Source of the DNA: Natronolimnohabitans sp. A-GB9
GTDB lineage: Archaea > Halobacteriota > Halobacteria > Halobacteriales > Natrialbaceae
Direction of reading: 5' to 3'
DNA length: 64,000 nt
NCBI RefSeq assembly: GCF_030848565.1
Contig: NZ_JAVDDV010000003.1
Coordinates: 248,001-312,000 of the forward strand
Position 1 is the stretch's first letter, and each line of letters starts with the position of its first letter. The notes under the pieces were generated by a model, which worked only from the letters and a program-made list of their open reading frames with translations, searched no databases and was not told the DNA's origin. The position numbers and the translations under genes were made by a program. Below, piece after piece: positions 25,315 to 63,878 of the stretch.

Positions 25315-25791
25315 GTGATCCTCGTCATCTGCGGGCCCCCGGGTGCAGGCAAGACCACGATCGCCGAGGAACTTCGCCGGCGACTCGAGGCCCGCGGCGA
25401 ATCCGTCCGGCTACATCACTCCGACGACTTCTCGAGTCGGACCTACGAGCAACTGTACGAGCGAGCGAGCGACGATCCCGAGGACGCGATCACGATCGTC
25501 GACGGAACGTTCTACCGGCGCACGTGGCAGGTCCAGTTTCGGACCCTCGAGTCGCGGACGGACGTTCGGTTCGTCTACGTCACGGCCGATCTCGAGACCT
25601 GCCTCGAGCGCAATCGGTCGCGGGCGGATTCGATCGACGAACAGGGCGTTCACGTCGTCTATCGGGAGTTCGACGCGCCCGAGGACGCCCTCGAGATCGA
25701 CACCGACGAGTACGACGTCGCGGCGGCAGTCGACGAAATCGTCGACGCGCTCGAGTCGTGGGGCTGGATCGCTACCGACAGTAACAGGTGA
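25315..25791 (+). CDS. P-loop kinase (adenylylsulfate-kinase / L-seryl-tRNA kinase-like)
   Basis: A 158-residue nucleotide kinase from GTG 25315 (MILVICGPPGAGKTTIAEEL). Walker A GPPGAGKT lies at residues 7-14. The segment LHHSDDFSS gives a DxD-like catalytic site, IVDGTFYRRTWQ follows, and VYVTADLETCLERNRSR provides a lid with Arg residues. The size and motif order fit the zeta-toxin, APS-kinase and PSTK superfamily. Substrate cannot be stated. The alternative GTG at 25267 lies in element C2 and adds residues unlike the family. The stop TGA (25789-25791) leads straight into element A2. Confidence 0.75.
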   Translation: MILVICGPPGAGKTTIAEELRRRLEARGESVRLHHSDDFSSRTYEQLYERASDDPEDAITIVDGTFYRRTWQVQFRTLESRTDVRFVYVTADLETCLERNRSRADSIDEQGVHVVYREFDAPEDALEIDTDEYDVAAAVDEIVDALESWGWIATDSNR

Positions 25792-62640: not shown

Positions 62641-63393
62641 ATGAGAAAGTTCGTCTTCGCCCTCGAGTACGAAGCCGGGACGAACCCGGTCGCCGACGTC
62701 CTCGCCGACTACCCCGAGGCGTCGATCCGCTCGCTGTCGTGTCACGTCACCAGCGACAGCCTCTGGCGGGTCGATCACGCGGAGGGGCCGGCGGAAGCAC
62801 TGGAAGCCCTCGAGGAGGCCTACGAGACCAGCGAGTTCTTCGCGGACTGTCTGGTCAAGGACGACTGCGGCGCGGATTGCGAGGTGCAGGTACTGGACCG
62901 ATCGAGCGACACCCTGGTGGTCTATACCTACTGGGACCGCACCGACGTTTGTACGTCGGTCCCCCACGTCGCGCTCGAGTACCTCGGCGAGGGGCTGCTG
63001 TTCGAGACCTACCGCGAGGGCCGGCGCTACCGCTGGCGAATCGTGCTGGGAAACGACGCGCCGATTCACGACTTTTTCGACGCGCTGGGTCAAGAGGTCG
63101 GCGACTGTACGGGGATGGAGATGTTGCGACTGACGGAACTCGATCCCGATCACGGTGACGTCGACGTTGGTCCTGAGACCTCGTTGCCGAGCGAACAACG
63201 AGAGGCGCTTCACGCGGCCGTCGAACACGGCTACTACGAAACGCCGCGGCAGATCGAACTCGGCGACCTCGCCGACGACCTCGGCGTGCCGCGATCGACG
63301 CTCTCCTATCGGCTCCGCCGGGCCGAGGAGAGCCTCGCGACGGCGTTCGTCGCGGAAGACGACTCGATCGAGGCACTCGCTGCGGAACGCTGA
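62641..63393 (+). CDS. Bacterio-opsin-activator-type HTH regulator
   Basis: A 250-residue haloarchaeal regulator starting MRKFVFALEYEAGTNP. The N-terminal sensor-like domain (about 1-150) is rich in beta strands and contains CLVKDDCGADCEV with three Cys, possibly metal- or redox-sensitive. The C-terminal HTH-10 domain (about 183-240) reads LPSEQREALHAAVEHGYYETPRQIELGDLADDLGVPRSTLSYRLRRAEESL, the signature of bacterio-opsin activator (Bat-like) regulators. Divergent from the gamma-glutamyltransferase gene, 174 bp apart. The target is unknown. An earlier in-frame start at 62578 was not used. Confidence 0.86.
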   Translation: MRKFVFALEYEAGTNPVADVLADYPEASIRSLSCHVTSDSLWRVDHAEGPAEALEALEEAYETSEFFADCLVKDDCGADCEVQVLDRSSDTLVVYTYWDRTDVCTSVPHVALEYLGEGLLFETYREGRRYRWRIVLGNDAPIHDFFDALGQEVGDCTGMEMLRLTELDPDHGDVDVGPETSLPSEQREALHAAVEHGYYETPRQIELGDLADDLGVPRSTLSYRLRRAEESLATAFVAEDDSIEALAAER

Positions 63394-63430: not shown

Positions 63431-63878
63431 CTACAGGAAACGGCCGACGACGTCGATTGCGCCGGGGTATCGCCACACCGAACCGGAGATCGCCCTCAGG
63501 GTGGCGACGACAGCGTACGCGAACGTGGCGAACACCGCGACCATAGTTGCGAGCAACGCGAGTAAGCCGACGACTGTAAACACCGTATCGACCGGTGACG
63601 GGAGCAGTGATAGTTCGGTTGCTGCTCCGCCGACGGTGATCTCGTCAGCACCGAGAAGGACCGTTGTGGCTGTAAGAATCACCAACGCAACCACAGTGAC
63701 GTGCCAGTTGAGGGCGTGGCGGGCGTTCTCCCGGGTGAACTCGTCGTCCGAAACGGCGTACACGACGGCGGGACCGACGAAGGCAGTGAAAAGCGCCAAC
63801 GGGTGGACGAGAACGCCGGTGACCGTTCGTTCGTTCGTAAGGGTGTTCAGGGCCAGGCATAGTGGATGTCGTCTTCAT
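63431..63878 (-). pseudogene. DUF4870 membrane protein gene shifted by a GTTC repeat
   Basis: From ATG 63876-63878 one frame reads MKTTSTMPGPEHPYER and then runs out of family sequence. A second frame from about 63840 encodes ERTVTGVLVHPLALFTAFVGP ... VYAVSDDEFTRENARHALNWHV and two further helices, typical of DUF4870. The switch lies at a GTTC tandem repeat (three full units, 63825-63838, plus strand). Removing one unit joins the frames into a 147-residue protein. So the gene is off in this sequence by a 4-base slippage, or carries a phase-variable repeat. Function of the domain unknown. Confidence 0.62.

Follow-up and report, generated by a model that had tools for sequence, protein, structure and literature searches.

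The DUF4870 gene and its interrupted frame

The window, by which we mean the whole stretch of 64,000 nucleotides at 248001-312000 of contig C23 analysed from Natronolimnohabitans sp. A-GB9, carries close to its right end a DUF4870 gene that starts at an ATG at 63878 on the minus strand and changes reading frame at a tetranucleotide tract, the frame change and the tract coinciding. The features of this gene are as follows:

63645-63878, minus strand: open reading frame read from the ATG in the present allele, 77 residues, those past the tract being out of frame
63831-63878, minus strand: codons 1-16 in the frame of the ATG, MKTTSTMPGPEHPYER, which match homologues such as MTSTSTASGPELLEER in length and in the GPE..ER pattern
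63824-63838, minus strand: tetranucleotide tract of 15 nt, ACGAACGAACGAACG in the gene and (CGTT)3.75 on the plus strand, at positions 41-55 of the coding sequence
63431-63827, minus strand: continuation, in the next frame, of the DUF4870 coding sequence, with no stop until a TAG at 63431-63433
63431-63799, minus strand: longest open reading frame with a start codon in the DUF4870 frame, from a TTG at 63799, 122 aa

The gene belongs to DUF4870/HOTT by its PF09685 match (E 8.5e-13, 48.7 bits against a curated cut-off of 25 bits, over residues 3-117 of the 63434-63799 translation), but not by an intact coding sequence, the 445 nt from ATG to stop changing frame at the tract. Tail to tail with it on the plus strand lies a regulator with HVO_2928_N and HTH_10 domains (62641-63393).

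The plus-strand letters across the tract are CGTTCGTTCGTTCGT. The preliminary description had placed a repeat at the frame break, at 63825-63838, and this tract is real and slightly longer than claimed (63824-63838, 15 nt, 3.75 units). It is a coding tract in which a change of unit number alters the frame, one of the properties of SSR phase-variable (contingency) genes; the minimum for a tetranucleotide SSR in Haemophilus influenzae, with which its 3.75 units may be compared, differs between the parts of PMC2651432 used here, being 3 units in the methods and Table 2 and 4 in Table 3. The window contains the exact 12-mer (GTTC)3 a single time, where shuffled sequences average 0.06 copies and 6 of 100 shuffles have at least one; it also contains two tetranucleotide tracts of at least 15 nt, where Markov sequences of four orders give means of 0.03-0.13. 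A genome sample of 843 kb, made up of three chosen contigs and covering about 20% of the genome, holds four tracts of at least 15 nt against 0.5-1.3 in Markov sequences (two orders, six runs each), a modest excess. By these counts the tract is unusual at its own site, yet not unique genome-wide.

Scanning the DUF4870 frame upstream of the TTG at 63799, we found no ATG, GTG or TTG start codon. A start inside the repeat region, where this frame reads LTNERT, was thereby rejected, and is also contradicted by the 25 coding sequences described below, which start 19 (n = 20) or 21 (n = 5) codons before a conserved GxLVH motif.

In the excerpts of PMC11628618 on which we draw, DUF4870 is HOTT (homologs of Tic Twenty), a family related to Tic20 and otherwise uncharacterised, and integral membrane helices are described for HOTT/Tic20. 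The genome holds an intact paralogue of the window gene (L004:3026-3466, contig C22), 147 aa long and 58% identical to it over the aligned part, with hydrophobic segments at about residues 17-41, 53-81 and 93-129, three stretches that may be set beside the helices of those excerpts. As the reading frame of the window gene breaks after codon 16-17, all three segments, placed by their positions in the paralogue, lie at or after the break. The paralogue resembles a gene of another genus (L010) far more closely than it does the window gene and so may have been acquired separately.

Length, start and decay of the homologues

Of the 125 genomes of the family covered by a protein search, among them that of the window, 75 gave matches, and the N-terminal region was examined in 30 loci (the window being one) plus the genome's own second copy. 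Local tblastn returned 38 rows, 37 with the GxLVH motif, and among these an in-frame start lies upstream of the motif in all 36 motif-bearing places other than the window, which alone lacks one. The preliminary description had named homologues starting downstream of the repeat as an outcome that would speak against its reading, and such homologues are ruled out by the upstream starts in these 36 places.

For comparison we used the 25 coding sequences with an ATG 19 or 21 codons before GxLVH, leaving out the window, the second piece of L029 and 11 rows of a longer class, which starts 24-29 codons before the motif and in most cases has frames of 280-310 residues. Nineteen of the 20 sequences with the ATG at -19 are exactly 147 codons long (441 nt), and the twentieth (L029) has its own frameshift, which leaves 81 codons; the five with the ATG at -21 measure 149, 149, 149, 154 and 179 codons. 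The 19 homologues of 441 nt include the genome's own paralogue and several near copies, 15 being distinct over the last 130 codons, and in plasmid records of Natronorubrum daqingense and Natronococcus occultus this gene is annotated as a CDS of 444 nt with the stop counted. Because the window gene measures 445 nt where 19 of its 20 same-start homologues measure 441 nt, it carries four additional nucleotides. Deletion of one repeat unit had earlier been said to restore a 147-residue protein, and 147 codons proves to be the normal length of the class (19 of 20 homologues). The window copy shares this 147-aa class of DUF4870/HOTT with genes of Natrialbaceae and differs in being frame-broken by +4 nt. 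In this respect its pattern fits an indel pseudogene or null allele, with homologues intact at the site (19 of 20 open, the twentieth broken elsewhere) and the break confined to one lineage.

Of the two genomes of the genus that were compared, the other one has no DNA match to the gene and contains distant DUF4870 proteins alone (best 1.0e-12, 35% identity). No relative was found in the viral contigs searched, nor in a contig search with the bare window protein as query.

Broken copies occur elsewhere in the family. L029 (1468-2100; Natrinema thermotolerans DSM 11552, also L091), which shares the class and the ATG at -19 with the window gene and is likewise frame-broken, has a one-base deletion about 80 codons in and over 2.66 kb shares 97% identity with an intact copy; the cause there is a single-base deletion away from any repeat, unlike that in the window. 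A longer-class copy in Halobiforma haloterrestris (G082) has a TGA in the matched stretch and G086 gives a partial match in which the first 62 query residues are missing, so DUF4870 copies outside the window have decayed too. In the homologue of Natronococcus jeotgali DSM 18795 (L028:474-1010) an ambiguous codon is flanked by a repeated C-terminal part, which may mark a join in the assembly.

Closely similar DUF4870 genes are spread across Natrinema, Natribaculum and Haloterrigena (L015-L020, L029), one of them on a plasmid; elsewhere, too, such genes lie on plasmids, and in one case such a gene adjoins an IS6 transposase; the gene seems to travel. At six loci (L007, L011, L014, L021, L022 and L023) a longer-class DUF4870 frame directly follows the 147-aa gene, the second copy of L014 carrying a TGA. 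The window copy stands alone, with no adjoining longer-class frame.

Origin and age of the extra four bases

The closest homologue, L006 (70% identity), reads ACGAACGA at the site, two exact units that begin at coding position 41, where the window tract also begins. This two-unit seed exists because the codons of the conserved (D/Y)-E-R-(S/T) stretch happen to read ACGAACGA. In the other 24 coding sequences there is no CGAA repeat at the site, four of them showing other four-base periods over 8-10 nt of this stretch, and a four-base period longer than 10 nt, that is more than two full units, is found at the site in none of the 25 homologous coding sequences. In the longer class, L082 (Halorubrum alkaliphilum DSM 23564) has CGGT three times at the ERSxGG motif in a 283-residue open frame, which shows that three units can occur at the site; here the same protein motif yields a four-base repeat from different codons. 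L082 was found with a motif pattern that located the site in 14 of the 23 named loci.

It is likely, in our view, that one recent slippage event duplicated four bases in tandem and thereby silenced this locus, a 147-codon gene whose product is a small DUF4870/HOTT membrane protein. The seed would have slipped once in replication, from about 2.75 to 3.75 units, which explains the break; the slip is inferred, the four-nucleotide excess observed. Ribosomes starting at the ATG at 63878 would then leave the frame after codon 16-17, ahead of the first membrane segment, and terminate at 77 residues, with the result that the frame-broken allele would produce no DUF4870 protein, a loss that the intact paralogue on another contig could make good. 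A one-time duplication had been offered in the preliminary description as an equal alternative to phase variation, and it is now the better supported of the two. The phase-variation part fares worse: no more than two full units occur in the 25 coding sequences, tracts of similar length do not, by eye, lie at frame breaks, and a related gene is broken by a repeat-free indel.

The 130 codons past the tract read as those of a normal family member, with no extra stops, from which the silencing is probably recent. The dN/dS ratio of the window gene, which falls within the range of other pairs, is 0.27 against L006 (0.20 for L006 against L009), 0.25-0.35 against L009, L007 and L014, and 0.13-0.21 against L008 and L004, the values involving L008, L004 and L014 being unreliable as dS exceeds 1. 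At 38 columns invariant in 15 other distinct sequences the window departs in five, and those others depart in 0-3 of 33-36, at most a faint sign of relaxation. Such conservation downstream would also be expected of a gene that is occasionally repaired, or of a consensus error.

Indels outnumber base substitutions in the chromosomal pyrF/pyrE2 of Halobacterium salinarum in the sections of PMC2816208 cited here, where a 9-nt direct repeat is a hotspot, most chromosomal indels outside the pyrE2 hotspot are +/-1 and mutations of a plasmid-borne pyrF are nearly all base substitutions. Given the plasmid substitutions and the mostly +/-1 indels of that account, a +4 event is a less typical one. With the GeneTack singleton frameshift genes and indel pseudogenes, as presented in extracts of PMC3711429, the window gene shares one frame transition in one genome with homologues mostly intact, and it differs from them in that its indel is a clean duplication of a tandem unit. 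On the reading preferred here it is one clear example of a slippage-made null allele in a haloarchaeon, with the two-unit seed still visible in a relative.

Consensus error, switching and other tracts in the genome

Under the reading in which the extra unit is a sequencing or assembly error, the true sequence would have the family length and the gene would be intact. This is a draft genome of 72 contigs (4.3 Mb) with an estimated contamination of 3.94%, and the downstream frame still looks functional, as it would in an unbroken gene; however, the seed for a real slippage is present in the closest homologue, L006, and an exact additional four-base unit in a 15-nt tract is an atypical consensus error for short-read data, which we count against an error. 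We regard this explanation as improbable.

Just as improbable, in our judgement, is a phase-variable archaeal contingency locus in which gain and loss of CGAA units would switch a Tic20-like (HOTT) membrane protein on and off within the population, the assembly having captured the gene while OFF and the paralogue keeping up a basal supply. The tract does lie within the first 12% of the coding sequence, where a one-unit change moves between frames, the downstream frame stays conserved, and L082 carries three units of another tetranucleotide (CGGT) at the same motif. In the portions of PMC2651432 cited, moreover, a GACGA x4 tract in hsdM of H. influenzae switches about as fast as tetranucleotide tracts that are much longer. 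The hypermutability given there for tetranucleotide SSRs of that species is about 1e-4 per generation. Its phase-variable genes, as they appear there, share with the window gene a tetranucleotide tract near the 5' end of the coding sequence in which a change of unit shifts the frame; the window gene differs in having 3.75 units, a single allele, a seed derived from conserved codons and an archaeal membrane protein as its product.

Against such a switch, the one genome of the species shows one tract length, and a tract exceeding two full units at this position is found in 0 of the 25 homologous coding sequences. The Natrinema thermotolerans homologue was broken by a plain one-base deletion, and similar repeat-switched genes are absent from the sample of about 20% of the genome. 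By the criteria given in extracts of PMC3711429, an isolated frameshift gene is taken as a sign of an indel or error, phase variation being called only in clusters of at least five. By analogy with polyploid Haloferax volcanii, which according to passages of PMC4056108 equalises its genome copies by gene conversion without selection (selection can retain heterozygous cells), mixed alleles might be evened out in this haloarchaeon as well. Homopolymeric tracts are the regulatory device treated in PMC2831843 for prokaryotes, with mention of archaea; titles and the opening lines of abstracts yielded none on tetranucleotide phase variation in archaea, a search that at this depth says little. If both tract lengths occurred in reads or isolates, repeat-driven switching of a coding frame would be open to direct test in an archaeon.

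Expression despite the break, whether by programmed +1 frameshifting of the ribosome or from an internal start codon, for example the TTG at 63799, is hardly credible: the two frames overlap and a TTG is present in the DUF4870 frame, but 19 of the 20 same-start homologues are open with no frameshift at all, and the TTG, which corresponds to codon 26, is unlikely to be a real start as it lies inside the first hydrophobic segment and past the conserved ERSxGGILVH part, which would be lost.

The sampled 843 kb contain five tetranucleotide tracts of at least 14 nt, one being that of the DUF4870 gene, two lying inside open frames and two seemingly intergenic, as judged by eye from translations; the open frames look, by eye and without family searches, like an ABC-transporter ATPase and a P-loop kinase. 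A genome-wide class of repeat-switched genes was accordingly rejected, as by eye the DUF4870 tract alone of these five coincides with a frame break. The tract in the P-loop-kinase-like frame, at 25458-25472 of the window, is a (CGAG)3.75 equal in length to the one studied here, and that gene is seemingly unbroken. The genome's second exact (CGTT)3.75 (C8:62617) occupies the 3' end of a frame that stays open and looks like cobyric acid synthase, and causes no break. Searched across the 125 genomes as a 19-base pattern with up to two mismatches, the tract was matched in 47, the window giving the sole exact match among those listed, and none of the other listed places coincides, compared by eye, with a listed DUF4870 place. 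The longest tetranucleotide tract in the sampled 843 kb is a G-rich (GGGT)5.75 of 23 nt (C23:57580-57602, L037 17580-17602), which by eye is intergenic and lies ahead of a small membrane-protein-like frame; it is a better candidate for length variation than the (CGTT)3.75 tract.
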